From a virus, in IMG/VR virus record IMGVR_UViG_3300017598_001230, positions 1-43,787 of that record: DNA of 43,787 bases; one strand, written 5' to 3'. The notes under the pieces are model-generated. The model worked only from the letters and a program-made list of their open reading frames with translations. It was not told where the DNA came from and made no database searches. Positions 3,170 to 36,211 of the stretch are shown here, piece by piece. The first letter of the stretch is position 1, and each line of letters opens with the position of its first letter. The translations under genes and the position numbers were made by a program.

Positions 3170-6100
3170 ATGCCTGCTAAAGGTACAGCAATTACAATTC
3201 AATATACTGCATGGGACACCGATAACAATAGAGGTAGAACTCTCGATGCAGCCAATCATACTTTGAGAGTCGTTAAAGACGGAGTCCCAGCTGTTGTCGC
3301 TAATGGTCCGACAGAGGTTGACGCAACTAATCTCCCAGGACTTTATTCCATCATACTCCTAACCTCTGAGAACGACGGAAAGATGATGTCCCTCCATGGG
3401 GTTTCCTCTACTCCGGATGTTTCAATCCTACCCGTTCACTGGAGCAATGAATCTAATCCAGTTCAATTTGCTGGGGAGGATCTGGATTCCAATGTGGGCT
3501 CCAATCTAAACATCTTCTTTGAGAATGGTGGATTTCCGACCTCCTCAATCGTTGACGATGTTGGTTCTGGAGGTGGCGGTAATCCGGAGACAACCATCAC
3601 AATCGATGGAACCTCTGGTGGAACTGCAATCTTAGGAGCTAACGGTCAGGTATGTCAGGCCACAATCCCTGCTGGTGGAATCACCGGCGGCGACATGGAC
3701 ATCACGATTCAACAGGTTCCAAAGGCTGACCCAGGCAATCAGTATACCGAGGTCTCTCCAGACTACGTTTATTTGATCACAGCAGTTTACACATCATCCG
3801 GATTGCCATATGACAATGCAGATATCAACGAGATCCAGGTAACGATTCCAATCGATTTGAATGAAGTTGCGGTCGACGATCTCGAGAACGGTATCAAGAC
3901 CATTTACTACGCTGGATCTTTGGCAGTTATTGAATCCGGTAATGCGACAGCAGTCCTACCTGCGGATATTCTCGCAACCGATTATGTTGGGGATGGAGAT
4001 ATAGGTTCCTGTACTTTTGAGATTGACCATCTATCTGTCTTTGCTGGTGGAGAACCTCAACCCTTTGCGGATATACCTGTAGCTGATAATCCATCTGGTG
4101 CATATCCGCTTGGAACAGATGTTGCTTTATCCTCAATAACTCCAAGTCCTACAATTTATTACACTACCGATGGATCAGATCCGGACGATACTGACACTGA
4201 GTACACAGCTCCGATTGATTTGTCTTCATTGCCAATAACGATTAAGGCGATCACATACGCAATGGGGTATAGACCGTCACCGATCATGACTGAGTCATAC
4301 ACACAAGCCCAGGTTGCAACTCCAGTCCATGTCCCACCGGCAGGTGAAGTAACAGTTGGTCAAACGATTACAATATCCTGTGCAACCGGTGGAGCAACGA
4401 TTCACTATACCACAGACGGTTCAATTCCGGATGTTGGTGATCCGGTTTATACAGTACCAGTTCCAATTACTGTACCAACCACCCTTCGTTCATTTGCTGT
4501 GGCGGCAGGGTACATTGACTCCGGTTTGCGTACGGATGTTTACACGATCGCGCAAGTTGATGATCCGACGATAGTGCCGGCTGCAGGTGAGCATTCAATA
4601 GGAACAGGTATCGAGTGGTCTGTAGTGGATCCCTCAGATGCAGATGTTCGATATGAAGGCTCTGCATCTGATCCGGATGATGATTCAGAGCGCTTGACTG
4701 AGTATAGTGTTCTTAATAACACAGATTGGACTGCTGGAACAGGAACTCCAACTTGGGATACTGACAAATGGGTTTTCTCTGCGGACGGTGACATCGATGC
4801 TGCCGCCAGGATTCAGCCATGGAGAGCTCAGTTTTTGAAGGTCACCATTGCGAATGAAGGCGCTACTTCTATTCAGCTAAAGGATTCCAGTAGTACCGTT
4901 ATAGCTGAGGTCACTGGAGTAACAGCAGGCTCCACTGTAATTATGGGTATTGATTATGATGGGGATGATATTCTCGAGCTTGCCATCGTTAGAGCAGGTG
5001 CAAGTGACCTGCACATCACAGAACTTGCTTTTTACAATGAATTCGGATGGAATGAGAAACACGATGAGGATGATTGGCTTGAATCTGTAGCTGCTTTCGT
5101 ATATTCAGGAGGAGATTGGACTCTTGCCACGGGATTGGGCAGATTAGGTGTCTGGGATGAAACTGCGTGGGAAAATGGTTTCAGACCAGATTCAGTAAGA
5201 ATTACTTTTACTGGACCCGCCAACATTCAAGTGGATGTATGGGATACAGGAGCCGTTTCTATCGGTGGTGGAGCCACTGTTACAAGTGGAGAGGTTTTGG
5301 ATCTTGACTTCGGTATTAATGATCTGAATAGAACCAATACGTTAAGAATCACAACTGGGTCCGCCTTAGTGGTCACAAGTATCGAGTTCCTGAATAATTC
5401 CAAGCAAATTACTCAGGATCAGACTTTTAGATTCGATGCCGTTAAAACTGGATACCTCGACTCAGGAGTCGTTGAACGCATCTACACTGTGCCACAAGTT
5501 GCCAATGTTACTTTCGATCCAGTTGCGGGGGAGTATGCCCCTTCTCAAGATATTACTTTAGCGACCGTGACGGGTGGCGCTACGATCAGATACTCTGTCA
5601 ATGGTGATGACATTGATGATATAGGTGATGGATCTGAGTATTCTGCCCCATTTGCATGTGGTAATTTCACTGTAAAGGCCAGGGCTTTTAAGGATGGATA
5701 TTTACCATCCGATCAAACATCCGCTGTATATACCAACCCAGCTGCAGCAGGAGATATTGAAGCTACAGTATCTTTTTATGATGATACCGGTACTTTAATT
5801 GTAACTCATAACAATGTTGAATCTGGGGACATACTTCCTGTATGGGTGGCCTCTGGGTCAGTCTCCGGATCAATCGAGGACTGGTTAGGTCGAATGTTGG
5901 TTACATTCGATAGACCTTTTGGGTCTATCACTGGCGCCGACTTTGAGGTTCAAGGCTCAGGATGGGATACATCCAGAACCATCGCAAATAGTGGGTGGGA
6001 TATTCTGCAAGCAATTGGCTTCGGTTATGATGTAGGATATCATGACTACTATACCAATAAATTCAGAGGTACCTTTGACGTAGGTCACTGGAACCCGAAC

Positions 6101-7153
6101 AGTAATCCGGATAAGTCCACTGGAATTAGATTTGGAACGGGTGGAGCTCAATCCAACGTAATAAATGTGAAAATTTATTTCCAAGAGGATGCTAAATGGA
6201 TTGACCATAGTGATTACTGGGTCTGGGATCAAGGATCCTCCATCGGTACCTTTGGTACGACTGGGGAATTTCTTGACATCACATCCGTGGCAGCCTCAGG
6301 CTCCGGTATCCCAACTCCAATTGGGTCCGGTTCAGGATCAGCATATCAACCACCATGGTATGAGATTAAACTCGCTGTGGATGGTGTAGCTGACTGGAAT
6401 GAGTATAAACCAAAAATTGTAAGACTTACTTGGCCATCCGATGATCCTCAGAAGTACATATACATCGAGGATGAGAATACTCCAACCGCGAATGTCCTTG
6501 TATCCCAATGGGTGACTAAGGACCAGGAAGTCTATATTAACTATGCCGCAGCCGACTTAGACATCAAGGAGATCTGGATTTATGGACATAATGGTCCAGG
6601 CGGTGAGGGAACCATCGACGGTGTCCAGATTCAATTCTTAATGGACGAATGGGAGAATGCAATACTTTGGGCCCGTTTTGGAATTGAGCAAACTTCTACA
6701 CCAGGTGGCTCTCCGCAGCAGAATCTGCATCGCATGCCATTTTATCCTAATGAGCGCTTCAATATCCAGACCGCTCGTGCTGCAGAGACCTCTGCCAGTG
6801 GATCTGCATCTGTTTCTGATCCAGGTGATGTCATTATATATTATCTGAGTGAAATTCGTGTGGACTTAGGGCTGCTTGATGGAGGTGGAGGCTCAGAACC
6901 GTGGGATTACTACATCTTTAACATCAAAAGAAGGTTGGGGAACGATACCTGGAGTGATATTCTAAACACGAACTGGGATACAAATCCATCTACTTGGGAC
7001 GCATCCGGCTGGTGGCTCCCAATGGCTGATGGGACTCAATTTAATATCATTGAACCTATCAGTGGAGAAGGCGCAAACGAAAAAGCAAACACGGTAGTCC
7101 TCTGGGGTCATAGGATTCTACATCCAGAGTCAGCTTCTGGTTCACCATCATAA
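3170..7153 (+). CDS. Large fibre-like structural protein with chitobiase-type repeats
   Basis: A 1327-residue, Asp/Gly/Thr/Ser-rich protein without a signal peptide, preceded by a strong GGAGAGG site. It carries four copies of a chitobiase/hexosaminidase C-terminal-type Ig-like repeat whose core reads IYYTTDGSDPD (about residue 328), IHYTTDGSIPD (about 410), VRYEGSASDPD (about 490) and IRYSVNGDDID (about 804); each ends in a GY..S...YT strand. The third copy is interrupted by roughly 240 residues that look like two further beta-sandwich modules. The last 450 residues are unique and rich in Trp. Position after the I-like gene suggests a tail fibre or baseplate-decorating adhesin; receptor binding is inference. 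Confidence 0.7.
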   Translation: MPAKGTAITIQYTAWDTDNNRGRTLDAANHTLRVVKDGVPAVVANGPTEVDATNLPGLYSIILLTSENDGKMMSLHGVSSTPDVSILPVHWSNESNPVQFAGEDLDSNVGSNLNIFFENGGFPTSSIVDDVGSGGGGNPETTITIDGTSGGTAILGANGQVCQATIPAGGITGGDMDITIQQVPKADPGNQYTEVSPDYVYLITAVYTSSGLPYDNADINEIQVTIPIDLNEVAVDDLENGIKTIYYAGSLAVIESGNATAVLPADILATDYVGDGDIGSCTFEIDHLSVFAGGEPQPFADIPVADNPSGAYPLGTDVALSSITPSPTIYYTTDGSDPDDTDTEYTAPIDLSSLPITIKAITYAMGYRPSPIMTESYTQAQVATPVHVPPAGEVTVGQTITISCATGGATIHYTTDGSIPDVGDPVYTVPVPITVPTTLRSFAVAAGYIDSGLRTDVYTIAQVDDPTIVPAAGEHSIGTGIEWSVVDPSDADVRYEGSASDPDDDSERLTEYSVLNNTDWTAGTGTPTWDTDKWVFSADGDIDAAARIQPWRAQFLKVTIANEGATSIQLKDSSSTVIAEVTGVTAGSTVIMGIDYDGDDILELAIVRAGASDLHITELAFYNEFGWNEKHDEDDWLESVAAFVYSGGDWTLATGLGRLGVWDETAWENGFRPDSVRITFTGPANIQVDVWDTGAVSIGGGATVTSGEVLDLDFGINDLNRTNTLRITTGSALVVTSIEFLNNSKQITQDQTFRFDAVKTGYLDSGVVERIYTVPQVANVTFDPVAGEYAPSQDITLATVTGGATIRYSVNGDDIDDIGDGSEYSAPFACGNFTVKARAFKDGYLPSDQTSAVYTNPAAAGDIEATVSFYDDTGTLIVTHNNVESGDILPVWVASGSVSGSIEDWLGRMLVTFDRPFGSITGADFEVQGSGWDTSRTIANSGWDILQAIGFGYDVGYHDYYTNKFRGTFDVGHWNPNSNPDKSTGIRFGTGGAQSNVINVKIYFQEDAKWIDHSDYWVWDQGSSIGTFGTTGEFLDITSVAASGSGIPTPIGSGSGSAYQPPWYEIKLAVDGVADWNEYKPKIVRLTWPSDDPQKYIYIEDENTPTANVLVSQWVTKDQEVYINYAAADLDIKEIWIYGHNGPGGEGTIDGVQIQFLMDEWENAILWARFGIEQTSTPGGSPQQNLHRMPFYPNERFNIQTARAAETSASGSASVSDPGDVIIYYLSEIRVDLGLLDGGGGSEPWDYYIFNIKRRLGNDTWSDILNTNWDTNPSTWDASGWWLPMADGTQFNIIEPISGEGANEKANTVVLWGHRILHPESASGSPS

Positions 7154-7167
7154 AGAATGGGAGATAA

Positions 7168-7341
7168 ATGAACAATCTCATAGACAATATATTTAATTTA
7201 CCAAGGGACCTTGGCGCCTGGGTTGTATACCATATCTCAAGATGGTTTAACCTGGGCGTATCCATAGATGAAGAAGACCCCTTCGAATCAATTTTCAGAG
7301 AGTTAGAGGATGTTGACGTAGACGAAATCGAAGATTGGTAA
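7168..7341 (+). CDS. Small acidic protein, unknown
   Basis: A 57-residue ORF with ATG at 7168 and TAA at 7339-7341, preceded by GGGAGA. The first 35 residues are amphipathic and aromatic (DLGAWVVYHISRWF), and the last 22 are strongly acidic, ending in DEIEDW. It fills the gap between the fibre gene and the glycan cassette, 14 bases after the former and 27 before the latter. The coding quality is plausible (good ribosome site, no in-frame alternatives) but no family is recognised. It might be a small chaperone or adaptor for the fibre; that is only a guess from position. Confidence 0.55.
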   Translation: MNNLIDNIFNLPRDLGAWVVYHISRWFNLGVSIDEEDPFESIFRELEDVDVDEIEDW

Positions 7342-7368: not shown

Positions 7369-9450
7369 ATGATCCCGATAGTATATCCATTCAAGCAGCA
7401 AAATGCTAAATGGGAGGAATTGAGGTATTCTATTCGTTCCATTGAAAAGCATTTTAAGTCCCCCTACCGTATTGTCATCATAGGTGACAAGCCCTCCTGG
7501 ATCAATAAAGATGCTCAAATAATACCCTTTCAATGGTTCAAACTTAGATCTGGTAGTACTCGAAATAAGAACTCCAACATCAACATGAAGTTCATAGTAG
7601 CATCTCAGCTTTTCGATGAATTTATTTGGATTGCAGATGATCAATACATCATCAAGGATATGTCTATTGATGATTTCAAAGGAAAGGTTCACTATGCCGA
7701 GCATTTAGTTGACTGGGCAAGGCCTACGAGTGGTACATCCCAATGGCAGGAACGACTATGGGACACAATCGATCATTTTAGATATTTGAAGCTCCCACTT
7801 TATAACTCGGAATGCCACTCCCCAATGTATGTTGACTCCTCCATAGTCCTGGATCTTCTAAATATGATAACTTTGGCCAAGGGTGACTATCTGTGGAAAT
7901 TTGCATATGGCAACTTTTACATTGAGAATGGGGCGGAGCCGGTTCCAGTCAATAAAGCAAATTTCTATGGAAACAACCAACCTTTCGAGGATATCGAATC
8001 ATCAGATTTCCTCGGTCACAATGATTCCGGGCTATGCTTAGATTTAGCTAAGAAAATTAAAAATCTTTTTCCCAAGCCAAGCAAGTATGAGGCAGAGGAT
8101 CCTCCAGAGAATGCTGAACGTTTAGTCCACCCGAGAAGCTTGGCGGATCTAAAGGTTACTCGGCATCGTAGAATTCGTGAAGAATTCGAAGGGAGAGTGC
8201 TCGCTGAACCCAATAAAATATTCGGGATCGGCATGCCTCGGACTGCAACTGTTTCTCTGACATCAGCGGTTAAGATGTTGGGACTCAAAGCTATTCATTA
8301 TCCCAACTCATTGAACAAAATGCAGGACCATGACTTTGGTGCGGACATTCCGATAGCTGCATCATTTGAAGAGCTGGATAACCTTTATCCCAACAGCAAA
8401 TTTATTCTAACTCGAAGGGATAGACTATCCTGGTTGGCAAGTTACTCCAAACATCTAAAGAGGCGGGAAGTACATGACAAGAAAATCTCTATCAATAGAA
8501 ATAAGACAGTCAATCATTGGAGGGAAAAATTATATGGGACCTCTGAATTAACTCTTCCGATCGTGGATCGAGCCTATGATGATTTTCACTTGAGAGTATT
8601 CGAGTATTTCAAGGATCGTTCCCAGGATCTCTTTCAAATGCATATTTGTGAGGGAGATCACTGGCCTAATCTATGTGGATTTCTCGATAGACGAAATCCA
8701 GGTGGAACCTTTCCTCATAAGTCTCTCAATTATGGTTTGCCTGAAATGTCTGCAGATCCAGAACTGAGTGAGTATTTAGCCACCCGAAACTCTCGGACAA
8801 TTAGAACGTGTGGTTTAATGTCAGTCCATAATTTCCCGATGACCTTGGAATGTCTACAGGACCTTGTGGATAGAGTAGATCATATAACCCTTTGGCTTGA
8901 TTATATAGAGGAATATGGAGGCGCCGGCGATCCAGAACTTTATACATGGTGTGAAAATCTCCTGGTAGAATCTGGCGTTCGATATCAGATTTTAAGGGCC
9001 ACAAGACATTGGAATAGATGGACGTTCCGAGAGGAATTGATCAGATCCTTGGATTCAATCCGTCCGGACATCGTTATATTCCCTGACTCGGATGAAAAAA
9101 TGGGTGAGGGATTCGATGCAGAGCTTGAAGAATTCAAGAATGATCCAAATGTAGTCATGAATTTAATGCCATATAAGATGATCACCAACGATGGGAGAAG
9201 TGTGCAGAAAAATCCCAAAGCTCGACACTGTAAAGTATTTAAATGGGAGCCCGGCATCACGTATCAAGACCTCCCAGGCACATTCCAAAAAGGATATAGA
9301 GGTACAGCGATTCCGAATATTCCAGCTTATCCGATACCAAAACGGAGAACTCGATGTTTCCATACGAGAACAACTGTGGATCATTATTGCTACTATACTC
9401 CTGAGTTGGAAAAGGTACATAGAGCTAATAGGGAGTGGCGCGGTGAATGA
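7369..9450 (+). CDS. Three-domain glycan enzyme: glycosyltransferase, sulfotransferase, glycosyltransferase
   Basis: A 693-residue protein that looks like three enzymes in one chain. Residues 1-250 start with a Rossmann-like beta strand and contain FIWIADDQYII (about 84-94), a DDx metal/nucleotide-sugar motif like those in capsule-type glycosyltransferases. Residues about 282-450 are a P-loop sulfotransferase: FGIGMPRTATVSLTSAV is the 5'-phosphosulfate loop and KFILTRRDRLSWLASY the 3'-phosphate loop, closest in style to the Sulfotransfer_4 type. Residues about 470-690 resemble a GT2-like A fold with IRPDIVIFPDSDEKM, giving a DSD motif. The next gene starts inside its last codons (8-base overlap). 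Expected role: building and sulfating a glycan. Confidence 0.72.
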   Translation: MIPIVYPFKQQNAKWEELRYSIRSIEKHFKSPYRIVIIGDKPSWINKDAQIIPFQWFKLRSGSTRNKNSNINMKFIVASQLFDEFIWIADDQYIIKDMSIDDFKGKVHYAEHLVDWARPTSGTSQWQERLWDTIDHFRYLKLPLYNSECHSPMYVDSSIVLDLLNMITLAKGDYLWKFAYGNFYIENGAEPVPVNKANFYGNNQPFEDIESSDFLGHNDSGLCLDLAKKIKNLFPKPSKYEAEDPPENAERLVHPRSLADLKVTRHRRIREEFEGRVLAEPNKIFGIGMPRTATVSLTSAVKMLGLKAIHYPNSLNKMQDHDFGADIPIAASFEELDNLYPNSKFILTRRDRLSWLASYSKHLKRREVHDKKISINRNKTVNHWREKLYGTSELTLPIVDRAYDDFHLRVFEYFKDRSQDLFQMHICEGDHWPNLCGFLDRRNPGGTFPHKSLNYGLPEMSADPELSEYLATRNSRTIRTCGLMSVHNFPMTLECLQDLVDRVDHITLWLDYIEEYGGAGDPELYTWCENLLVESGVRYQILRATRHWNRWTFREELIRSLDSIRPDIVIFPDSDEKMGEGFDAELEEFKNDPNVVMNLMPYKMITNDGRSVQKNPKARHCKVFKWEPGITYQDLPGTFQKGYRGTAIPNIPAYPIPKRRTRCFHTRTTVDHYCYYTPELEKVHRANREWRGE

Positions 9451-10096
9451 TCCGTTTAAACATGCATTTTGTATAAATCTTGATAGGCGACCAGATCGTT
9501 GGAGACGAGCGAAACAAGCCCTTTATGAAGTAGAGATTCCAGTAGAAAGGTTTTCTGCGATAGATGGACCAAATCGCTTTCCAGATGAATTTCTAAAGAA
9601 ATGGAAGAAAAAAGATCGGAAGCGAAACCCGAAAGCTCATATGGGATGTACAACCTCACACAAACAAGTTCTGCTATTCGCTCGGGATCAGGGATATCCA
9701 TATGTTGCAGTATTTGAGGATGACATTTTCTTCGATCCACAGTTCTGGATCGTTTTCAATGAGGCCTGGAGGGATCGGCCGGATAAGTGGGCCATGCTCT
9801 ATCTGGGGTGTGTGCATGGTAAGAAACCAGGGAGACACTCAAAATGGCTCCGAAGAGTCACAAAAGCTTTTACTACTCACGCGTATATAGCTAATGGGAT
9901 TTACTATGATGAGATTATAAGTTGTCTCGGACTGTCCCGACCTGTGGATTTATCCTATGGTCCACTGATAAGGAAACATCTAAACTATAGTATTCACCCG
10001 CCGATAGTATTTCAGGAGGCTGGGCACTCAGATATTTTGGAAAAGCACTACGATGTTCACGAACATCTCGGATATTTGAATCACTTTAATAAATAA
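9443..10096 (+). CDS. Glycosyltransferase, GT25-like
   Basis: A 217-residue protein of the glycosyltransferase 25 (LOS/LPS galactosyltransferase) type. Diagnostic segments are FCINLDRRPDRW near the N-terminus, AHMGCTTSHKQVLLFA and YPYVAVFEDDIFFD, the last giving the catalytic EDD, then HAYIANGIYY. I place the start at GTG 9443 because GGGAG lies 8 bases upstream and the family begins with exactly this strand; a longer reading frame opens at 9191 but its extra 84 residues lie inside the previous gene and are not family-like. The GTG overlaps the end of the fusion gene by 8 bases, indicating translational coupling. Confidence 0.85.
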   Translation: MNDPFKHAFCINLDRRPDRWRRAKQALYEVEIPVERFSAIDGPNRFPDEFLKKWKKKDRKRNPKAHMGCTTSHKQVLLFARDQGYPYVAVFEDDIFFDPQFWIVFNEAWRDRPDKWAMLYLGCVHGKKPGRHSKWLRRVTKAFTTHAYIANGIYYDEIISCLGLSRPVDLSYGPLIRKHLNYSIHPPIVFQEAGHSDILEKHYDVHEHLGYLNHFNK

Positions 10097-10121
10097 AGGA
10101 AGGGGGTTTAAATACTATATT

Positions 10122-10883
10122 ATGGCAGACCTAACCTTTATAACGGGTATGGGGAGAACGGGATCTACCTGGTTCAGTAAATTGGTGGCGGCGTCTCTCG
10201 GAGCTCAATACTTTCATGAAGCTTTTCGCTTCAAATACGATCCCGAGGGATACAAGAGATTCACCCGAGTGATGATAGAAGATAATGACGATAGGGGTAT
10301 TTGGGAGTACATCCAGGACAAATTTCCCAATGGCCCGATCGTGATTAAAGATTTTACAATTAGGTTTGCGGCTTCATATCTAAAGAAGAGAGGCGCGAAT
10401 GTATTTATAATCGTCAGGCACCCCTACCCATGGATGTCTTCAATCATTCGGAATAAACATAATCCCCATCTTTTCCCCTACGGTGAAAGAATTATCGTTG
10501 AACATTTTCCTCACTTGAGAAGTCACATTGAAAAACATTCCGACTCAATAGAGGGAATCTTGGCAATAAGATATGGGGTCTTGCATAGTCACTTGATCTC
10601 AATACAAGGGTTTCCATTCGTTAGACATGAGGACTTATGTCTAAATCCCGCGAAGGCATTTTCTAATGTAGGTTTGAATTTCAACGAGGCGGCCCAAAAC
10701 ATTTATGATCATCACAACCAACCGGGACATAAACCATATCTCCAGACAAGGTTAAGCGAAAAGGAACCATTTAAGTGGCAAGGGTATTTAGATCAAAAGA
10801 AGTATAACTACATCTTTAAGGTACTGGAACCCTTTGGGATCTTAGATCATTTAGGGTATCAGTATGTAGGATATCACCGATAA
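10122..10883 (+). CDS. PAPS-dependent sulfotransferase
   Basis: A 253-residue P-loop sulfotransferase. The 5'-phosphosulfate-binding loop is FITGMGRTGSTWFSKL (residues 6-21), and the 3'-phosphate-binding strand-loop is VFIIVRHPYPWMSSI (about residues 95-109), both canonical. Such enzymes move sulfate from PAPS to a sugar or other hydroxyl or amine. The length is that of a minimal single-domain enzyme. It is the second sulfotransferase of the cassette besides the middle domain of the 7369 fusion. It follows the GT25-like gene by 25 bases with a purine-rich AAGGAAGGGGG site and is followed after one base by the PP-loop gene. Confidence 0.85.
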   Translation: MADLTFITGMGRTGSTWFSKLVAASLGAQYFHEAFRFKYDPEGYKRFTRVMIEDNDDRGIWEYIQDKFPNGPIVIKDFTIRFAASYLKKRGANVFIIVRHPYPWMSSIIRNKHNPHLFPYGERIIVEHFPHLRSHIEKHSDSIEGILAIRYGVLHSHLISIQGFPFVRHEDLCLNPAKAFSNVGLNFNEAAQNIYDHHNQPGHKPYLQTRLSEKEPFKWQGYLDQKKYNYIFKVLEPFGILDHLGYQYVGYHR

Positions 10884-10884
10884 T

Positions 10885-12051
10885 ATGATTTCTCATCTTG
10901 ATATATCAAAAGTTTCCGATGATGGCGAGTTTATAAAGGCGGATATAACCCTGGCCGGCGATGGATATTCTAATAAATTCTATGTGAAAGCTGAAACCTC
11001 TAAGGTAGCATACATCCCCTCAATAGATTTCGCTTTAATCATGGCACTCTTCAAAGCTATGGAGAAGGGCGGAACTTTATATGTCCATGGGGATGTGTCA
11101 GCATCCCTTCTTGATGGCATCGAGGAATTTCAAAATCTTTATATTCATTGGTATGAGAACACAGGCTGGCTCCATCGAGTGGAGGTAATACCAGATAAGG
11201 AAATCGAACTTTCGACTGCTGGAGTCGGAGGGTATATGCAATCCTGTACGATGGGTGTGGATAGTCTCTACTCGGCTCTAACGCATATATATGGTAGAGG
11301 ACACAAACAGCGCGGCCTATTAGATATGGCGTCCCTATTATACATCAAAGGATTGGACGCTCCCTCAAACTCTCCAGACCATGCTGAGCTAATTAAGCAG
11401 ATCCATAACACTATTCCAAATTTCCCGGTAGCTATCGCTGAGACGAATGTTAGAAGAATATACGACGGTCGAAAATACGATCTCATGTTTGGCGCCATCT
11501 TAGTCGGAGTCGCCAATTTATTTTCTGCCTCCTATGACGGATTTCTGATTTCACCAACATATAACTTTCGACTTCTGCCAACTGGAGTTAATGCATACGC
11601 CACTCCGTTTCTGGGCACTGCTACTTTCAACATTGCTTATGATACTCCGATTGCGAGATCTCACAAGCTCAAGAGGCTGCATGACTCCTGGCCAGAGGCT
11701 TATCATAAGATCAAACCCTGCTGGCAGGGGAAGCGACAGAATGTAAAGTACTCAGTCAATTGCGGTGTCTGTGGAAAGTGCATCAGGACTCTACTATCGG
11801 CCGAGATAATGGGCATCCCTAAACCCAATTCAATCAAGAATAGATTGAAGACGAATTGGATGGGTGTATTCCAGAGCGCGTCTACCGGATGGACTCAGTA
11901 TATCATCATCCTGGATGAATACCGATGGTTACGGGAACAAGGATACACTGGCAAGTTGATGAATAAATATGGATTGATCCTCCAGCAACTGGAACCCAAG
12001 ATAATGGAAGCCATTAAACAGAGAGTGGATAACAACTACAAGATATTCTAA
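10885..12051 (+). CDS. PP-loop (adenine nucleotide alpha-hydrolase-like) protein, QueC-related
   Basis: A 388-residue protein whose middle contains SCTMGVDSLYSAL (about residue 120), a degenerate form of the SGGxDS pyrophosphatase loop used by N-type ATP pyrophosphatases. Near residue 300 it has a Cys followed after 13 residues by CGVCGKC, an arrangement like the zinc site of QueC but with wider spacing. The N-terminal 110 residues have no known match. QueC makes preQ0 for 7-deazaguanine, but here the gene is flanked by a sulfotransferase and a pyruvyl transferase and no other queuosine gene is seen, so a glycan-related adenylation or thiolation role is more likely. It overlaps the following gene by one base. 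Confidence 0.6.
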   Translation: MISHLDISKVSDDGEFIKADITLAGDGYSNKFYVKAETSKVAYIPSIDFALIMALFKAMEKGGTLYVHGDVSASLLDGIEEFQNLYIHWYENTGWLHRVEVIPDKEIELSTAGVGGYMQSCTMGVDSLYSALTHIYGRGHKQRGLLDMASLLYIKGLDAPSNSPDHAELIKQIHNTIPNFPVAIAETNVRRIYDGRKYDLMFGAILVGVANLFSASYDGFLISPTYNFRLLPTGVNAYATPFLGTATFNIAYDTPIARSHKLKRLHDSWPEAYHKIKPCWQGKRQNVKYSVNCGVCGKCIRTLLSAEIMGIPKPNSIKNRLKTNWMGVFQSASTGWTQYIIILDEYRWLREQGYTGKLMNKYGLILQQLEPKIMEAIKQRVDNNYKIF

Positions 12052-12926
12052 TGCTAAAAGATAAATTTGAAGAAATCGTTGATGGGTGGCTGCCACCTTT
12101 GAAGAAATGCTGCATTCTAAACTGGCCGACCCACAGGAATGCAGGCGACCACTTTATTGCCCTGGCTGTTCTGTTATTTCTCACTCAGAAACGCCAAACT
12201 AAGGTGACTTACATAGGAACTGTTAATGATTTAAACTCTCAGAAGATCGATGCCGCTGAAAATATTGTATTTGTTGGCGGCGGTAATCTTGGGGATCTGT
12301 GGCCGGCTTGCACTCAAATGTACAGGCATGTATTTTCCAGACACGCGCCCCAACCAATATTCATTTTCCCTCAATCCATTTGCTTTCAGAGGGATGATAA
12401 TCTCCAGAACTTTAACCATCTGATTAACAACGCGACTCCTCATATACTGGTTCGGGAGAAAGAGAGTCTAAAATTTACGACGAGGTGGGATACCGACATC
12501 GTATTAGCTCCAGATTCAGCTTTCTTTTTACAGGGCTTGATAGATAAGATGAGGTTTATCGAATCCTCTAACTTGTATTTATCACGTAATGATAAAGAGA
12601 AATTGAACAGCGGGTTTATACCGGAAAGGGGCACAGAGTCCGCGGATTGGAGAACGGCCTCTTGGTTTTTGTGGAAGCGTTTCATGAAACATGTTAACCA
12701 TCGGGTAGACTTGCCTTTATTATCGTGGAGTGTTTTGCAAGAATCCGTATTGCAACTCCTACCGCGCACTCACGTCACCACCGATCGACTACACTGTCAT
12801 ATATTATGCGAACTATTGGGTATTAAGCATGACTTTCACCCAAATGCATATCACAAGAATGAATCATTTTATAATACATGGACTAAAGAGTCTAATCTTT
12901 GCCGCTTTATTGACAGGAGGATATAA
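12051..12926 (+). CDS. Polysaccharide pyruvyl transferase-like protein
   Basis: A 291-residue protein of the polysaccharide pyruvyl transferase family, which adds ketal-linked pyruvate from PEP to sugars in exopolysaccharides, teichoic-type polymers and S-layer glycans. Supporting segments in order: HRNAGDHFIALAV (about residue 26), the glycine-rich VFVGGGNLGDLW (about 74), PIFIFPQSI, HILVREKES, VLAPDSAFFL, and near the C-terminus TTDRLHCHILCELLGIKH, the family's conserved T.RlHg helix. It overlaps the PP-loop gene by one base and ends the cassette; the next structural gene follows after 3 bases using GGAGG inside this gene's end. Confidence 0.85.
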   Translation: MLKDKFEEIVDGWLPPLKKCCILNWPTHRNAGDHFIALAVLLFLTQKRQTKVTYIGTVNDLNSQKIDAAENIVFVGGGNLGDLWPACTQMYRHVFSRHAPQPIFIFPQSICFQRDDNLQNFNHLINNATPHILVREKESLKFTTRWDTDIVLAPDSAFFLQGLIDKMRFIESSNLYLSRNDKEKLNSGFIPERGTESADWRTASWFLWKRFMKHVNHRVDLPLLSWSVLQESVLQLLPRTHVTTDRLHCHILCELLGIKHDFHPNAYHKNESFYNTWTKESNLCRFIDRRI

Positions 12927-12929
12927 ACT

Positions 12930-14330
12930 ATGGCTATGGTAATGGTTGAAGAAGGACACATCGTGCACGCCGTTTCAATGTACAACGAGGAATTCTGGCT
13001 TGCTTGGGGTGATCTTCCACTTTTATACGAGGATCCTTGGACTATCGGTGATACGCCGCCACGTTCCGACTCTCAGACAGCAACTGAGACCGTGACAAAA
13101 GGCGCCGCTGATGGAACAGATCAACTTGCACAAACCACTCTCGAGCAATTGATGATTGGAACTATGGCTGTTGTTGAGCAGGGCGCCACCACATACGTGG
13201 AAGGCGTTGACTACAACATTCTCGCCGGCGGTATTGTCGATTGGTCTTTGGCTGGTGCAGAACCAGTAACTTCCACGACATACACGGTTCAGTATCGTTA
13301 TGTCACCGATGAATTTAATACTCTCGACAATGAAGTTGGCCGAAGAAGCGCCAACCAGGTTGCATACGTCGTTGAGGATCAGTTTGGCGACATCGTTGCG
13401 AATGGGTCAACATGGTCCATCGTAACAGCAGCTCAGGCTGAGGTTACGGACATCACTTGTTTGACAAACGTCCAGGCAGCTGGAATTGTGGATTTGGACT
13501 CCCGAATTCTCATCACTGCCGAGGATGGATATATCAACAACTTGATCATTAACATCGAGGATAATGGCGTTGAGACTGGCGACAATGCATCCGTATCCGT
13601 CACATCTGGCGTTATGACCGTTGAAATCGATGATGGAGTAACCACAGAGGGAACCATTGCAACAGCAATCTCCGGTGATGCTCAGATCGATACTGCAGTT
13701 GCTGACACACCTGCTCTGGTTTGGACTCTTGGAGTCGGAACTGACACAGGAACAATCACTGGCGGTACTGGATATGCCGGTGGTGAGTCCTTCAAATTTT
13801 ATGACACAAATGGAGTCGGATACTATGTCTGGATCACTTCAGATGCAGCTGGTGCCGATCCCTCACACGTCGATCACACTGGAGTACAGGTCGACATTCT
13901 AACCACGGATACGGCCGACAATGTGGCAACAAAGATTGCCGCTCAGCTCGATCTATTGGCCGCATTCGCTGCTCCCGCACCTGCAGCCGAGATCATCACA
14001 ATGACTGCGGCAGCAATGGCAGAGCAACAGGATGCCGAAGATGTTGACATGCTGGTCACCATCGACGTTCCAACTCAGGGAACGGACTATCCGACACGTA
14101 ACTTGTACATCGAGTTCAAGTTCCAGGCGGATGAGGCGTCCGACAAGGACATTTATCAGATCGCATTATACTTGAACACAACGCGAACTGTAATAACACC
14201 ATCATACCAAGAATATCTGATTCCGTCAGAGATCCTGGATCCTGGCCAGATGTACATGACTGAGAACATCGAGCCATTCCCGAGATCACCAGGTAAACGT
14301 GAGATCTTTGAATTTGTAATCGTATTCTAA
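12930..14330 (+). CDS. Virion structural protein with module shared by the two following genes
   Basis: A 466-residue protein, beta-rich and Ala/Thr/Asp-rich, no signal peptide, with a GGAGG site 8 bases or so upstream. Residues about 81-125 carry a module (GATTYVEGVDYN then GGIVDW and STTYTVQYRYV) that is repeated in both large proteins encoded directly downstream. The middle part (about 160-370) is Ig-like in composition, with repeated DN.A..IA..I segments typical of tail and capsid decoration domains. The C-terminus ends with a family-like FPRSPGKREIFEFVIVF. No enzyme motif seen. Probable baseplate or tail-fibre network component; specific role unknown. Confidence 0.7.
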   Translation: MAMVMVEEGHIVHAVSMYNEEFWLAWGDLPLLYEDPWTIGDTPPRSDSQTATETVTKGAADGTDQLAQTTLEQLMIGTMAVVEQGATTYVEGVDYNILAGGIVDWSLAGAEPVTSTTYTVQYRYVTDEFNTLDNEVGRRSANQVAYVVEDQFGDIVANGSTWSIVTAAQAEVTDITCLTNVQAAGIVDLDSRILITAEDGYINNLIINIEDNGVETGDNASVSVTSGVMTVEIDDGVTTEGTIATAISGDAQIDTAVADTPALVWTLGVGTDTGTITGGTGYAGGESFKFYDTNGVGYYVWITSDAAGADPSHVDHTGVQVDILTTDTADNVATKIAAQLDLLAAFAAPAPAAEIITMTAAAMAEQQDAEDVDMLVTIDVPTQGTDYPTRNLYIEFKFQADEASDKDIYQIALYLNTTRTVITPSYQEYLIPSEILDPGQMYMTENIEPFPRSPGKREIFEFVIVF

Positions 14331-14348: not shown

Positions 14349-17300
14349 ATGGCCATAACACTTAATGGTTACTGGAATCGTTTCGAACGCTCTAATGGCT
14401 ACAAACGCCATCTTTTCAGAGCCGCTCGTGGTCTGCAATCTGCTGAAATGAATGAAGTCCATGACTACATTCACGATAATTTTGTCATGTTTGCAGATTT
14501 CTTGATCGGCGACGGTGTTGTCATGCAGGGCGGGGGTATTAATATAAACGAGGACGCCGACGAAGCTTTCGTCGAAGAAGGAGCATTTATTGCTGATGGT
14601 TACGTACTCGAACTCGTAGCACGCAATGATATCACCATCACCGCGGTTGGTACATACAACATTGGAGCGATCGTAAAGGAACAGGTCATCACAGAACTCA
14701 CTGATCCTGACTTGCGTGATCCAGCCACGGGAACTCGAAATTATAATGAGCCAGGCGCCGGTGCTCTGCATATCACTGCGCGTTGGGCTCTGGATTCTGA
14801 GCTTTCAGATCCAACTACTGAACGATTCTTTCCAGTGCATAAAGTAGTGGACGGTCTCGTTGTCTCTGGTAAAACTTCCGAACAGCCAGAGGATATAGCC
14901 GATCCAGTCAAAGAATTGGTTGCTCAGTATGACAGGGATGGAAACGGTAACTATATTGTCGAGGGGTATGGTGTATCCTTTGATATCGATGACGCTACAG
15001 AAGAAGAACACGTCATGGTAATCGATTCCGGCCGTGCTCATGTTTATGGATACTTGATCAATAGATCCCACAGATCCAAACTTCGCTTGCGTTGGGGTAC
15101 AGATACTGCCTTCACCAATAACGAGCCCATCAACTTCATCGGTGACGGTTGGTATACCTTGAGGAATCTCCCGATTTCCGATATGGTCGAAGTTTTCGGT
15201 ATTACTCGAGAGCAGGATGAAGCTGTGACTCGTGTCCCGGACGTCCCAATTGATTCGGATGAACTGATCAATCAACCAGTCGTGGACATCGAACTTGTTT
15301 CCTCACTCCCAGGCGGCGCCGGTACAGTTTATGTCGAAGGTGTAGACTGGCAGCAAACGGGTAACTCTGTTGAATGGCTTGGCGGTGGATCTTCTCCAAC
15401 CCCAGGTTCAACCTACTATGTCACTTACACTTGGAACCAGGATATCACAGGTGCGGTAGTCATAAGTGCTGATAAGACCCAAATCCAAATCATCGGTTTG
15501 GTAACGGGTACCATAGCATACGCTGACTATAACTTCTTTATCCCACGCTACGACAAAATCATCATCGGAAGAGATGGTGATTTCCAGGTCATCGAAGGAA
15601 CTCCAAACCAGCCAGATTTGATTCGACCCCCAATCAATACTCAGGGACTCGCCCTATCTGATGTCTTAATCGAATACGGTAAAGAACCAGTATGCGGTCC
15701 GGCGGGAACTCGAGCTTATCAGATGAAGGACATCGAATATATCATGCAGATTCTGCAGGATGTTCGATACAATATGTCCCGCATGGCTCAGGTCACAGAT
15801 GCTGGCCTTCGTGATCCATCCACTAACAAGAAAAATATGTTCGTTGAGCCTTTCCATGATGAAGATTTATTGGACCTCGGGCTTGACAATAACGCTGCAA
15901 TCGCCGACGGTCACTTAATGGGAGCCATCGACTGGACGCCGAACGTTATTCGTTCTGGTGACTTGATTCGTCTCCCGTACACAGAGACTATTCCGGAAGC
16001 GCTGAAGAATACTGCATATTCAAAGACCCGTAAGGTCAATGAACTGGACATCGTGATCAACGAACAGTCCATGAGTATTGTACCGAAGTCTTTTCAGTGG
16101 ATTTCAAGCTTCACTGGATCTGGCAACTCACCACAGATCACGAATGACCCGGGCGCAGAGATTCCGACTATACCTGCAGACGGTGGCCCTGTAACTCTCA
16201 CCGTAACGGGTGGAGTTTACGCCAGTTCTGAATTGGTCGCTATTTACATCGACGGTGATCAGGTTCTCGGACAGGGTGATGATACTCTGGCCGGCTCCAT
16301 CGATCCGACTGAATTCCAGAACGGACTACACTACTGGACGACAGACGTGGATGGTAACTTTAGTTTCACCATCGATATTCCAGCCGGAGTCAAAGCTTGC
16401 CGCGATATGAACGACTCAATCGTGATCGAGACTGTTGGGTACACCTCAAGAGTTGGAGCTATCGATTATTTCTTTGCTGCAGCCAGACTCGGGAAGACAG
16501 CCTTTAACGTCCTCCAGGGACAGCTTAACTCTCAGAGAGCATCAATCAATGCGAATACCCGAAGAATCGGTTCTCTGGAAAGAGGAGTAGCACAACTTGG
16601 TCGTGGTTTGAATGCTTTAACCGGCGATGTCGCTGCATTAGGTCAGAGGGTCACTCGTTTAGAAAGAACTCCTCCGGTCCAGATCTCACAGACATTTACC
16701 ACTAACGTCACACAGGTCTTTCCTGTAAGACGAACCACAGTCATCCGGAATGTTACTCGAAGATGGTGGGGTGGAGGTAATGGCGGAGGGGATCCACTTG
16801 CTCAGACATTTATCCCAGAGGAATCAGCATTCTTGACCTCTTGCGAGATCTTCGTCACTACCAAGCCAGCGAACGTGGATAACACAAAGAACTTTATGGA
16901 AGTTGCAATCCACGGAGTTCAAGTTGGTATTCCAGATCGTACGGAAAAGGTTGCATCTAAATTCCTAAGAACCGAAAATATCACCGAAGGTGCTTGGAAC
17001 AAGTTCACCTTTGATGAGCCAGTTTTAGTTGAAGCTGGAGTGGAGTACTCGATCGTCGTCTTCTCCCCGGACACTGAAACCTATATTCGAGTTGCCGAGA
17101 TTGGACAATGGAACTTGGAGTCTGGAAACACCGGTTGGATGGAATCCCAACCACATCACGGTGTCCTACTACAGTCCGCGAATAGAAGTACCTGGACTGC
17201 GTTGCAAAAAGAGGACATGACGTTTAGGCTTAATCAGGCCAATCACTCTTTGACTCTGGTCGATGATTTAATCGGTTCCCTCGCAGTCACAAACGCTACG

Positions 17301-17885
17301 GATCTAAACTTGACCGTTGGGTATGATGAGTATCCAGGGACCCTGGCGAGATTTCATGCAATTTTACCTGATCGTTTAAATGAACGCCAGGAGCTACCAA
17401 CAAACAAGACAATTAAAATCGAGGAATATTCTGGACAAGTTGATGTCTACGTAAACCTCGCATCTAATGATTCAAACATTTCACCGGTAGTTGACGGTGA
17501 CGTAACTCTGTCCGTCGGTCAAGTTCAATTCCCAGCCACCTATACCGCGAGAGCTTTTGACATCGATCTCACGGATGGTATCTCAGACACCATGAAGGTA
17601 TGGTTGGATCGCTATGAGCCAGCAAACACTGACATCGAGGTTTATTTACAAACCAGTGGTGACGGTACCTTGCCAGGTCATTGGACTTTAGTCCCAATGA
17701 TAGCGGAAACTCCAATTGGAGATGGATGGATGGATACTGAATACGGAATCTCAGGCCTACAGGTTACATTTGGGCCGGTAGTACAAGAGGTTCGCATGAG
17801 AGTCGTATTAGATTCAACCGACCCACAACTGTTCGACAGACCACAAGCAGAGAACTTGAGAGCTTACATCGCTGTCGTGCCTTAA
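14349..17885 (+). CDS. Giant baseplate/tail protein, DUF4815 type, copy 1
   Basis: An 1178-residue protein that I recognise as DUF4815-type from its N-terminus (GYWNRFERSNGYKRHLFR and the following helix ending NEVHDYIHDN). Domains in order: DUF4815 region 1-310; shared beta module at about 312-365; a second DUF-like stretch with ADYNFFIPRYDKI; an Ig-like segment near 600-690; a coiled coil at about 715-780 (LNSQRASINANTRRIGSLE and LGRGLNALTG); a Trp/Gly linker; then a C-terminal block starting with DPLAQTF and including VAIHGVQVGIPDR. The coiled coil suggests an oligomeric, probably trimeric, fibre-like protein. GGAGG precedes the start. It is paralogous along its length to the next gene. 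Confidence 0.75.
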   Translation: MAITLNGYWNRFERSNGYKRHLFRAARGLQSAEMNEVHDYIHDNFVMFADFLIGDGVVMQGGGININEDADEAFVEEGAFIADGYVLELVARNDITITAVGTYNIGAIVKEQVITELTDPDLRDPATGTRNYNEPGAGALHITARWALDSELSDPTTERFFPVHKVVDGLVVSGKTSEQPEDIADPVKELVAQYDRDGNGNYIVEGYGVSFDIDDATEEEHVMVIDSGRAHVYGYLINRSHRSKLRLRWGTDTAFTNNEPINFIGDGWYTLRNLPISDMVEVFGITREQDEAVTRVPDVPIDSDELINQPVVDIELVSSLPGGAGTVYVEGVDWQQTGNSVEWLGGGSSPTPGSTYYVTYTWNQDITGAVVISADKTQIQIIGLVTGTIAYADYNFFIPRYDKIIIGRDGDFQVIEGTPNQPDLIRPPINTQGLALSDVLIEYGKEPVCGPAGTRAYQMKDIEYIMQILQDVRYNMSRMAQVTDAGLRDPSTNKKNMFVEPFHDEDLLDLGLDNNAAIADGHLMGAIDWTPNVIRSGDLIRLPYTETIPEALKNTAYSKTRKVNELDIVINEQSMSIVPKSFQWISSFTGSGNSPQITNDPGAEIPTIPADGGPVTLTVTGGVYASSELVAIYIDGDQVLGQGDDTLAGSIDPTEFQNGLHYWTTDVDGNFSFTIDIPAGVKACRDMNDSIVIETVGYTSRVGAIDYFFAAARLGKTAFNVLQGQLNSQRASINANTRRIGSLERGVAQLGRGLNALTGDVAALGQRVTRLERTPPVQISQTFTTNVTQVFPVRRTTVIRNVTRRWWGGGNGGGDPLAQTFIPEESAFLTSCEIFVTTKPANVDNTKNFMEVAIHGVQVGIPDRTEKVASKFLRTENITEGAWNKFTFDEPVLVEAGVEYSIVVFSPDTETYIRVAEIGQWNLESGNTGWMESQPHHGVLLQSANRSTWTALQKEDMTFRLNQANHSLTLVDDLIGSLAVTNATDLNLTVGYDEYPGTLARFHAILPDRLNERQELPTNKTIKIEEYSGQVDVYVNLASNDSNISPVVDGDVTLSVGQVQFPATYTARAFDIDLTDGISDTMKVWLDRYEPANTDIEVYLQTSGDGTLPGHWTLVPMIAETPIGDGWMDTEYGISGLQVTFGPVVQEVRMRVVLDSTDPQLFDRPQAENLRAYIAVVP

Positions 17886-17898
17886 TGGAGTAAGTTAA

Positions 17899-20800
17899 AT
17901 GGCCCTTGATTTAAGTGGATATTATAATCGGTTCGACCGAGATAAAGGATATAAGCGCCACCTATTCAGAGACTCAAAGGGATTTCAATCAGCGGAAGGT
18001 AATGAACAACATGATTTCAATCATGACAACTTCCGCTTGTTCACGGATGCCTTAGTCGGGGATGGCGCTGTTCTGCAAGGATCCCTTGCATATATAAATG
18101 AAATTGCCTCCGAAGCAAGTCTCGAGGAAGGCGCAATCATTGCGGAGGGGTATGTCCTTGAGTATGAAGCAACTACGCTGACTATCAATGACACAGATAC
18201 CTTCTCCGTTGGAATTGCTATCCTACAAGAAATCATCACTGAGATCGAAGATATCGAATTGAAGGACCCTGCTGTGGGTACCATCAATTATAATGAAGCA
18301 GGTGGCCATCGACTCAAGATTACAGGTCGATGGGCATTTAGCGATGACTATGATCCAGCCACAGAACAATTTTATCCAATACATCAGATCGTTCAAGGTA
18401 ACCTGATCACGAAACAGCCGAACGCTTCTGACAATATCATGTCCCCAATTGTTGAGTTGGTCGCCCGCTATGACCGTGGATCGAACGGAAATTACGTTGT
18501 TAATGGAATGGAAGTGGTTTATATTTCCGAAGACGCGACCAACTCAATGCATAATCTCTCCATCGTAGCAGGTCTCGCTCATGTTTTCGGATATGAAATC
18601 AATTTCACGAGTGATTTCCAGGTAAAGCTTGACTGGGCAATCGATGAGGAATTTACCAATAATGAGCCAGTCCAGTTCACTGGTGATGGATGGTATGAGC
18701 TCCGGAATACTCCAATCTCATCAATGGGTGAAGTCTTTGGTATCAAGGAAGTCACTCAGGATATCACTCACGGTGGATACACTGGAGCCAAGGACGAGCT
18801 GCCGCAACAGCCAGTTGTTGCAATTGATTCCGTTTCTCAAGGTGCTACAACTTATATCGACGGTGTAGACTATGAGCAAAACGGTAACTATGTGGACTGG
18901 GCCCTTGGAGGAAGTGAACCCGCTCCTGGATCTACATATGAGGTTACCTATCAGTACAACGATGAGATTACATCAACTGTAGTTATCTCCGAAGACCGTT
19001 TATCTGTACAACTTCTCGGATTGAAAACCGGTACTGTAGCATACGCCGACTACGATTATTTTCTCCCAAGATACGACAAAATCAATCTCCTTCGAGATGG
19101 ATCTGTTTTCATAACGAAAGGTATCCCAGCGGATGAAGATGATATCAAGAAACCTGTAAACAACGAAGGGCTGCCACTTGCAACTGTCAAGATTTACTAT
19201 GGCAGGGAGCCTGAAATTGAATACGAGGGATATCGAGCATTTAGAATGTCCGATCTTGCAGATATGCAAGATCAGATTCACGAGCTGAGATATAATGTAT
19301 CCCGTTTATCTCAGATGGAGGACGTGTCTGCGAAGGATCCTACCACAAACAAGAAAAATATGTTCGTGGAACCCTTCTTTGACGATGATCTCAGAGACAC
19401 AGGTTTGACCAATGACGCTATTATCATGGACGGTATCTTAAATCCATCTGTGGTATGGACTGGAAACCAAATCCGGGCAGGTTTACCGATTCAGTTACCA
19501 TATACCTCTGCAACAGTCATTAATCAGGATGCTTACACGAAGACTCGAAAGGTCAATGAATTTGATTATGCTGAGATTCGTACCGTAATCGATTGCCAGC
19601 CATCATCAATGAGATGGATCTCAAGTACGGTTGGGTCCGGTAGGAGTCCTACTCAGGTTGAGGATACAAATGCGGTTATTCCCTCAAACACTTTAATCAC
19701 CATCACTGGTGGAAAGTACGCGGTTGGTGAGGACGTACTAATCCATGTGGATAATGTTGAGGCTACCACAACCATAGCTAACGGCGACGGCGAGATCGAC
19801 GTCACTTTCGAAATTCCATCAGGAGTAAAGGCTGGAATCAAACAGATCTCAGCTGGAGGTCAAACGACTAAAGCCTTGGGCCGTACTACCTTTATTGCAA
19901 GCGCCATTCAACAACGAACGGCTATGAATACCAAGCTGGCCCGACTGGCAGCTGAGATTGATAAAAAAGTAAATCTCTCCACTTTCGATCGTCGCTACGG
20001 TGAATTACCTGCGGATCTGAGAGCGAAAGCCAGAGGACATATCGCCAGGGGTTACGGTGAGGATCGTCTATGGCAGCACTATGAAGGCTGCATGGGTGGC
20101 GGACGCCGTACACTTGCATGGTGTGTAAAGAATGATCCTCTCGCACAAACTTTCAAGATGGACGCCGGTGGATTCATAACCGGAGCAAGCATTTATTTCA
20201 CTAAAATACCAGCTGATCCAGACGAGATAGTTGAAGTAGCAATCCACGCAACTCAGGTAGGAATCCCAGATCGCGAGGATCTCATAGTAAATATCGAACG
20301 ATTCTCGGATGATCTTGCCGTTAATGCATGGAACCCATTCAATTTCGCGTATCCGGTTTACTTAGCTGCCGATGTGGAGTATGCAATGGTGGTGTTCTCG
20401 AGAGATACTGACACCTTTATTCGAGTAGCTGAGATTGGTGGGTATGACCTTGAGCATGGTATCTGGCTATCTTCACAAGTTCATGACGGTGTTTTGCTCC
20501 AATCAGCAAATAGGAGCTCTTGGACCGCCATCCCTAAAGAGGACATGACATTCAAAATCAATTACGGTACCTTTGACGCAACGGATGAAGTTCTTCTTGG
20601 TACCTTGACGATGGTAGATGTCACGGATATCAACCTCACAGCAACCGCTGAGATTCTGGCTAACACAGATGTGACATATAGAGTCGAGTTAGTGGACAGA
20701 TCTCCATCAGCTGAGACTGTAGTATTGAATCCTGGAAAAACTGCTAAGGTTGAGCAATATTCAGGAGAGGCAAACTTTTATGCGGTTCTGACAACAGATG

Positions 20801-21471: not shown

Positions 21472-21713
21472 TGACACAAGATGCACAATCAGGCAATGGG
21501 GACGGTAGCTGGAAAGAATGGAGCCGCTGGGTTCGCGAGAGTATTCGCGAACTCAAGCGCGACCTCAAAGAACTCGCAAAAGAAGTTGCTGCCCTCAAAA
21601 TTGAACTAACGGTCCTCAAGGTTAAAGTGGCCCTTTGGGGATTCGTTGGCGCCGCCCTTGCTACAGGTCTCATCCAAATCATAGTCCACTATGTAAAGAA
21701 AGGTGGGTTATGA
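21471..21713 (+). CDS. Holin-like small membrane protein
   Basis: An 80-residue protein with a charged, heptad-like helix at about residues 22-50 (RESIRELKRDLKELAKEV) and one hydrophobic segment at about 53-72 (VALWGFVGAALATGLIQIIV), ending with a short basic tail. This topology (coiled coil then single C-terminal membrane span) is like XhlA-type and class III-style holin components. It starts on the last base of the DUF4815 copy 2 gene (TAATG) and its stop overlaps the next start (ATGA). The downstream endolysin lacks a signal peptide, so some holin is required and this is the best candidate. Function is inferred from topology and position. Confidence 0.65.
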   Translation: MTQDAQSGNGDGSWKEWSRWVRESIRELKRDLKELAKEVAALKIELTVLKVKVALWGFVGAALATGLIQIIVHYVKKGGL

Positions 21714-36051: not shown

Positions 36052-36211
36052 ATTCAAACCCGGTGATCGGCTGACAGCTATATTTTCAGAAGCTCGTATC
36101 CGAATCATAGGAGTTTCAAAGACTCATTACATTATCAGGTTTATCGGTGGGAAGGAATTAGTCACCTCATGGCCACACCACGGAGTAGAGAAGGATTATG
36201 AAATTTCCTGA
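36041..36211 (+). CDS. Mini-protein between polymerase parts 2 and 3
   Basis: A 56-residue protein from ATG 36041, with GAGAGG upstream, overlapping the end of part 2 by 11 bases. It is beta-rich (KFKPGDRLTAIFSEARIRI, HYIIRFIGGKELV), resembling a small SH3-like or OB-type barrel. No motif for nuclease or intron mobility. It fills the second break of the polymerase gene and its end overlaps the start of part 3 by 14 bases. Confidence 0.5.
   Translation: MIPKFKPGDRLTAIFSEARIRIIGVSKTHYIIRFIGGKELVTSWPHHGVEKDYEIS

Follow-up and report, generated by a model that had tools for sequence, protein, structure and literature searches.

Phage glycan enzymes have been described in several settings. Pelagimyophages and jumbo cyanophages carry 'host recognition' clusters in which glycosyltransferases lie among or near the tail-fibre genes, or are clustered, with a patchy distribution between relatives (PMC7029224, PMC7824862). 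In mycobacteriophages Che8 and Rita, phage glycosyltransferases decorate the virion (PMC11256854, citing Freeman 2023), and sulfotransferase domains to which no function has been assigned are encoded singly in marine phage genomes, for example in OM43 phages (PMC10580990). Tail-associated glycan clusters, glycosylation of virions and sulfotransferases encoded singly by phages are already known, each separately. Here we analyze a five-gene cassette (g1-g5) of a virus represented by a single 43,787-base sequence classed as linear (IMG/VR record IMGVR_UViG_3300017598_001230; this entire stretch is hereafter called the window). The predicted products combine glycosyl transfer with sulfation, pyruvylation and a QatC-like enzyme, and we propose, with moderate confidence, that they constitute a cytosolic acidic-glycan tailoring set acting on the phage's own virion protein.

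Sulfation, pyruvylation, the QatC-like enzyme and the insertion between two structural genes set this cassette apart from the host recognition clusters; no sulfotransferase is mentioned in either paper on those clusters, and no pyruvyl transferase in PMC7824862. The Che8 and Rita genes, as summarized in the citing paper, lie near the genome end, act on the capsid and come with no mention of sulfate or pyruvate enzymes. The OM43-type sulfotransferases are reported as lone metabolic genes, neither fused to a Stealth-like domain nor located in a tail-operon cassette. What is new in the cassette is the presence of a pyruvyl transferase/QatC-like pair within a phage-type glycan cluster. The initial annotation of this locus, made from the sequence without database searches, had suggested that a combined sulfate/pyruvate scheme is novel, and this held in all collections searched: neither the combination nor a QatC-like enzyme in a phage glycan cluster was found in the open-licence literature or in the other viral records searched, and the same literature yielded nothing joining a pyruvyl transferase with a sulfotransferase, auxiliary metabolic genes or a PP-loop. 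The three-domain fusion in g1, the QatC/QueC nature of g4, the bacterial pairing of g4 with pyruvyl transferases and the fibre-linked sulfotransferases of other viruses go beyond that annotation. The cassette consists of the following genes:

7369..9450, + strand: g1, a three-part protein of 693 aa
9443..10096, + strand: g2, a GT25 glycosyltransferase
10122..10883, + strand: g3, a probable divergent sulfotransferase
10885..12051, + strand: g4, a PP-loop ATP pyrophosphatase of the QueC/QatC fold with a Cys4 zinc site (predicted structure)
12051..12926, + strand: g5, a polysaccharide pyruvyl transferase

Cassette enzymes and the g4-g5 pair in bacteria

The g5 protein is a member of the PS_pyruv_trans family (PF04230; E 5.5e-19, 69.6 bits against a cut-off of 25.3). 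It aligns over almost its full length (aa 15-279; E 1e-14) with the solved PDB structure 5ax7, 'Pyruvyl transferase 1', and retains the TDRLH motif. In the phylogenetic tree, g5 falls within a cyanobacterial clade (support 99/99) on a long branch, which suggests a cyanobacterial source. A direct search of viral contigs recovered no g5 relative. The sole match to g5 among phage records is a distant one, at positions 1329-2270 of an unannotated 5.3-kb human-faecal scaffold labelled 'Bacteriophage sp.' (MT838384; locus L007).

The g4 sequence matched nothing in Pfam, PHROG, NCBIfam, PADLOC or PDB, and no relative was detected among viral contigs, either in direct or in profile searches, or among other phage records. 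The AlphaFold model of this protein (predicted local distance difference test, pLDDT, 88) is best matched by QatC of the qatABCD system (9y01_B; Z 16.6 over 286 residues, model range 1-365), followed by QueC (2pg3; Z 11.3, 179 residues), with other PP-loop enzymes at about 8. This likeness rests on one aligner because Foldseek alone gave no significant match for the model and QatC and QueC were seen only by VIA re-alignment; the Z of 16.6 is well above the rest. Four cysteines (C279, C293, C296 and C299, the Cys4 zinc site) together with N292 and R258 are invariant in 55 g4 homologues, and the PP-loop reads TMGVDS in the phage protein compared to SGG[VL]DS in most relatives. Fold, zinc site and PP-loop of the predicted model accordingly agree with the QueC fold, whereas the QueC sequence family (PF06508) gave no match to g4 and only sub-threshold matches to its relatives. 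QatC is described as a QueC core that carries a zinc site of four cysteines and is extended at both termini (PMC13279940), and the g4 model shares all of these with QatC and with Cap9 of the type IV cyclic-oligonucleotide-based anti-phage signalling system (CBASS; PMC13279940, PMC13329287). It differs from both in the absence of QatB or any other Qat partner, in its pyruvyl transferase partner and in a substrate motif that is not conserved. In its predicted structure g4 resembles QatC in build, yet it has neither the QueC sequence signature nor the Qat partners, and we class it as neither. Anti-phage defence of the qatABCD type was considered and rejected: none of g1-g5 has a PADLOC match, the g4 family matches no Qat model, and the neighbours are glycan enzymes.

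The g4 protein itself sits on a long branch, and its tree position lacks support for any particular placement. A tblastn search identified distant g4 relatives, annotated as hypothetical, on plasmids of Gloeothece, Azospirillum and Gemmobacter; an annotated polysaccharide pyruvyl transferase adjoins the first two and is one GT25 gene away in the third. A profile search found 114 relatives in many bacterial phyla, of which the best 80 were kept. In 31 of the 83 bacterial loci, the g4 homologue and a pyruvyl transferase gene are separated by 300 bp or less and, conversely, 32 of the 41 pyruvyl transferase genes are this close to a g4 homologue, compared to 2.0 expected under random placement. 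Such pairs occur in dispersed parts of the g4 tree, whose well-supported branches require a minimum of 14 changes, and this indicates that g4 and pyruvyl transferase genes stay or come together repeatedly; given such conservation in bacteria, the phage g4-g5 genes appear to be a borrowed functional pair.

Other neighbours of the bacterial g4 homologues include flippases, glycosyltransferases and sulfotransferases. In Nostoc sp. S4 (locus L011), a pyruvyl transferase, a g4 homologue and a sulfotransferase are encoded in a row, the same neighbourhood as in the phage, but there as part of a larger cellular polysaccharide locus; further along lies an open reading frame (ORF) that, on our reading of the sequence, resembles an adenosine 5'-phosphosulfate (APS) kinase (CysC-like). 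A survey of the QueC family (PMC13329287) mentions neither polysaccharides nor pyruvyl transferases. The pairing of a QatC-fold enzyme with a pyruvyl transferase, widespread in bacterial polysaccharide loci, represents a biochemical function yet to be assigned.

The first gene of the cassette, g1, encodes a fusion. Residues 1-245 resemble Stealth_CR2 (PF11380; E 7e-7, 29.8 bits, under the cut-off of 39.4), belong to phrog_7999, a family that also occurs in mycobacteriophages other than those mentioned above, and show distant similarity to GNPTAB (E 1e-4). With CR2 under its cut-off and no other Stealth Pfam model matching g1, the domain does not qualify as a Stealth sugar-phosphotransferase and is denoted here as Stealth-like. 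Residues 282-455 belong to Sulfotransfer_4 (PF17784; E 3e-23, 83 bits against a cut-off of 22.8) and contain the motif GMPRTATVSL, the loop for the sulfate donor 3'-phosphoadenosine 5'-phosphosulfate (PAPS). No homologue or match was found for the C-terminal third (aa about 460-693), which may be GT-A-like judging by a DSDE motif; in the light of this negative result, a glycosyltransferase identity would be conjecture.

The g2 protein belongs to the GT25 family (PF01755; E 3e-13, 50.3 bits against a cut-off of 24), and its relatives in PDB include COLGALT1 (procollagen galactosyltransferase 1) and an entry titled 'putative glycosyltransferase R655', R655 being a mimivirus protein. From the sequence, the true start is GTG at 9443, preceded by GGAG, rather than ATG at 9191, and results in an 8-nt overlap with g1. 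For g3, the match to Sulfotransfer_3 (PF13469) is weak (E 0.007, 17.1 bits, below the cut-off of 27). The protein nevertheless contains the motifs GMGRTGSTWF and IVRHP and can be aligned, though weakly, with a sulfotransferase from Nostoc whose gene adjoins a g4 homologue, and the 50 PDB chains listed by VIA for its low-confidence model (pLDDT 47) are all sulfotransferases or close fold relatives (best Z 6.2). Motifs, alignment and model together support the identification of g3 as a divergent sulfotransferase. No match to g3 was found in other phage records, plasmids or viral contigs. The enzyme inventory proposed in the initial annotation is supported: glycosyltransferases of two types, two sulfotransferase domains (that of g3 through a weak match combined with motifs and model), one PP-loop protein and one pyruvyl transferase.

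Place of the cassette in the tail operon and related viral loci

All main genes of the window lie on the + strand. Baseplate wedge-like genes and a long Fn3_assoc/CHB_HEX_C_1 protein precede the cassette, and a BW3TFN/DUF4815 protein and two DUF4815 paralogues follow it; 3' of this tail block are genes for an endolysin, helicases, DNA polymerase A, an extracytoplasmic function (ECF)-type sigma factor and a GyrB-type topoisomerase subunit. The genes flanking the cassette are:

3170..7153, + strand: long structural gene, putatively fibre- or adhesin-like and a possible acceptor, with three CHB_HEX_C_1 and three Fn3_assoc matches in Pfam
7168..7341, + strand: strongly acidic ORF of 57 aa (isoelectric point 4.1) between the fibre-like gene and the cassette
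12930..14330, + strand: BW3TFN (baseplate wedge/tail fibre network component), the structural gene that follows the cassette, with a DUF4815 part

The five genes are consecutive and inside the tail block, as initially annotated, and neighbouring genes are no more than 27 nt apart (from the 57-aa ORF onward, 27, -8, 25, 1, -1 and 3 nt). The view that overlaps demonstrate a single translation unit applies to g1/g2 and g4/g5, the only overlapping pairs within the cassette, and not to the other junctions, with gaps of 25 and 1 nt. The Shine-Dalgarno sequence AGGAGG of the structural gene starting at 12930 is located inside the 3' end of g5. Considering the short gaps and this ribosome-binding site, the cassette most likely belongs to the tail operon rather than to an adjoining island. 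The proposed site between a fibre gene and the next structural protein is correct as to position; the fibre identity of the upstream product, which has no PHROG match, is suggested by its repeats. In codon use, the cassette resembles the structural module (distance 0.068) more than the replication module (0.092), which fits the late expression initially put forward, without proving it. An operon that unites five specific domain families with a conserved gene pair is far beyond chance.

By hydropathy, all five proteins lack a clear membrane segment, and none of their genes encodes a flippase, a polymerase or an initiating transferase. A promoter and terminator scan performed no better than shuffled sequences, Rfam detected no RNA element, and no close relatives of this phage were found. 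Among viral contigs, a direct search recovered no relatives of the neighbouring structural gene; eight distant DUF4815 relatives, all fragments, contain no pyruvyl transferase or Sulfotransfer_3 match.

A search with the Stealth-like domain retrieved 422 viral contigs, of which the best 80 were kept. These loci are varied and encode the major head protein, portal, terminase or other glycosyltransferases, and elsewhere replication genes. In an unrelated 103-kb virus (L096), a 431-aa protein consists of Sulfotransfer_4 followed by a Stealth-like domain, the g1 order reversed, with 39% and 29% identity to g1 over the two parts (40% between the sulfotransferase domains). The gene for this fusion comes immediately after an array of long, repeat-rich genes, at least seven in number, that resemble fibre genes, and the same virus has another Sulfotransfer_4 match elsewhere. 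We found no description of sulfotransferase/Stealth fusions in the open-licence literature. The region 10853-12523 of L096 also contains a small frame with a sulfotransferase-like P-loop (no Pfam match) and a frame resembling quinolinate synthase NadA.

A scan with the g1/L096 sulfotransferase domain detected 25 viral contigs, including some that nearly duplicate one another. Long fibre-like ORFs rich in S, T, G and N are encoded near the sulfotransferase in L186, L187, L188 and L190/L207, and ORFs that read like terminase and portal in L204. GT25 genes are present in nine of the 25 contigs, and nucleotide-sugar epimerases in several. In L194/L208 (6992-7950), a Sulfotransfer_4 gene is directly followed by an APS kinase-like ORF, with one PF01583 match among the neighbours; this phage may make its own PAPS. 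Profiles detected no g4 or g5 homologue in the 25 loci and, more generally, no pyruvyl transferase or g4 homologue (the latter by profile only) was found in the DUF4815 relatives or, among the viral loci examined, in those with a Stealth-like or sulfotransferase domain. That fibre-linked sulfotransferases recur in viruses may point to a wider layer of virion or receptor chemistry. A further viral locus, L148 (297-10100), contains giant genes for multi-domain glycosyltransferases directly upstream of ORFs resembling T4-type tail genes; one of these glycosyltransferases has 1095 aa, with Stealth_CR2-like and GT2 domains.

Candidate acceptors of the glycan

We propose a tentative scheme in which soluble cytosolic enzymes, presumably co-transcribed with myovirus tail genes, would build an acidic glycan on the particle. 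The Stealth-like domain and the GT25 enzyme, possibly along with the g1 C-terminus, would build or extend a short sugar chain from host nucleotide sugars; the two sulfotransferase domains would add sulfate from host PAPS; and g5 would add a pyruvate ketal from phosphoenolpyruvate. The g4 protein might use ATP to activate a carboxylate, most simply the one installed by g5, for amidation or condensation, a partnership that we infer from the QueC-family mechanism and the gene pairing. The acceptor would be the fibre or another tail protein from the same operon, and the resulting acidic glycan would tune adsorption or shield the particle. The enzyme activities, the order of steps, the chemistry of g4 and the acceptor are all predicted from the sequences. 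If active, the cassette would enable a phage to equip a glycan with both sulfate and pyruvate, a chemistry known from cellular exopolysaccharides.

In the absence of an initiating phosphoglycosyl transferase, flippase and polymerase, the target should be reachable from the cytosol, that is, either virion proteins or lipid-linked host precursors, and virion proteins in the cytosol would be directly accessible to enzymes without membrane segments or flippase-type partners. The operon position, the codon use and the separate fibre-side sulfotransferase/Stealth fusion lead us to favour a virion fibre or tail target over the host surface. Several observations weigh against this choice. The g4 and g5 homologues come from bacterial surface-polysaccharide loci, not from protein glycosylation loci; the tail-region glycosyltransferases of pelagimyophages have been interpreted as modifiers of the host O-chain (PMC7029224); some viral sulfotransferases sit with sugar epimerases and other glycosyltransferases; and in some viruses the Stealth-like domain is found near replication genes. 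The last two settings imply that the fibre linkage is not universal. Furthermore, the PP-loop of g4 is altered (TMGVDS), and we found no close relative in which persistence of the cassette would show.

The main alternative, which we regard as possible although less probable, is that the enzymes modify a host surface polysaccharide or its lipid-linked precursor, such that a sulfated or pyruvylated O-chain or capsule unit alters the receptor late in infection and blocks superinfection, re-adsorption to debris or rival phages. We retain it because of the polysaccharide origin of g4-g5, whose bacterial homologues adjoin flippases and glycosyltransferases, and because the glycan clusters of jumbo cyanophages and pelagimyophages, in the tail region or elsewhere, have been read in this way (PMC7824862, PMC7029224); the nucleotide-sugar epimerases and GT25 genes in several viral sulfotransferase loci point in the same direction. 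However, the cassette has none of the known seroconversion-type proteins (membrane protein, flippase or acyltransferase), a late structural-operon position leaves little time for surface remodelling, and the fusion in L096 directly follows a fibre-like array.

A more specific variant of virion modification, which we consider improbable, is that g4 couples the carboxylate of the g5-set pyruvate ketal to an amine, perhaps that at the N-terminus of a virion protein, so that glycan-to-protein conjugation would accompany sulfation, by analogy with the QueC-family proteins that are thought to act in this manner on partner proteins in CBASS and Qat. If so, the g4-g5 conjugation pair would also operate in the many bacteria that carry it.

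That the cassette is a decaying or accidental acquisition without a present role is quite improbable: the lack of close relatives with the cassette, the long branches of g4 and g5 and the altered PP-loop would be in line with decay, but the five frames are intact in a tight operon, the zinc cysteines and TDRLH are kept, and the codon use matches that of the neighbours. Least probable is a modification of phage DNA bases against restriction, by glycosylation and sulfation with g4 as a deazaguanine enzyme, since, although QueC homologues function in deazaguanine DNA modification and glycosyltransferase- or sulfotransferase-based nucleotide modification systems are attributed to phages in earlier work cited by PMC10829341, the g4 relatives adjoin pyruvyl transferases in polysaccharide loci and not deazaguanine genes, the YPDC substrate motif of QueC (PMC13329287) is not conserved in the g4 family alignment, and the genes are situated in a tail operon.

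Other features of the window

The two DUF4815 structural paralogues (14349-21471) are arranged in tandem and are 47% identical. The coding sequence of DNA polymerase A is divided among three ORFs (33572-35233, 35443-36051 and 36198-37352); the splits fall at or near conserved polymerase motifs, and the inserts, in which no Rfam intron was detected, hold small Cys-rich reading frames. The GH108 endolysin gene overlaps with another gene, which encodes a protein with several PAS domains (both within 21635-23360); to our knowledge, PAS sensors are unusual in phages.

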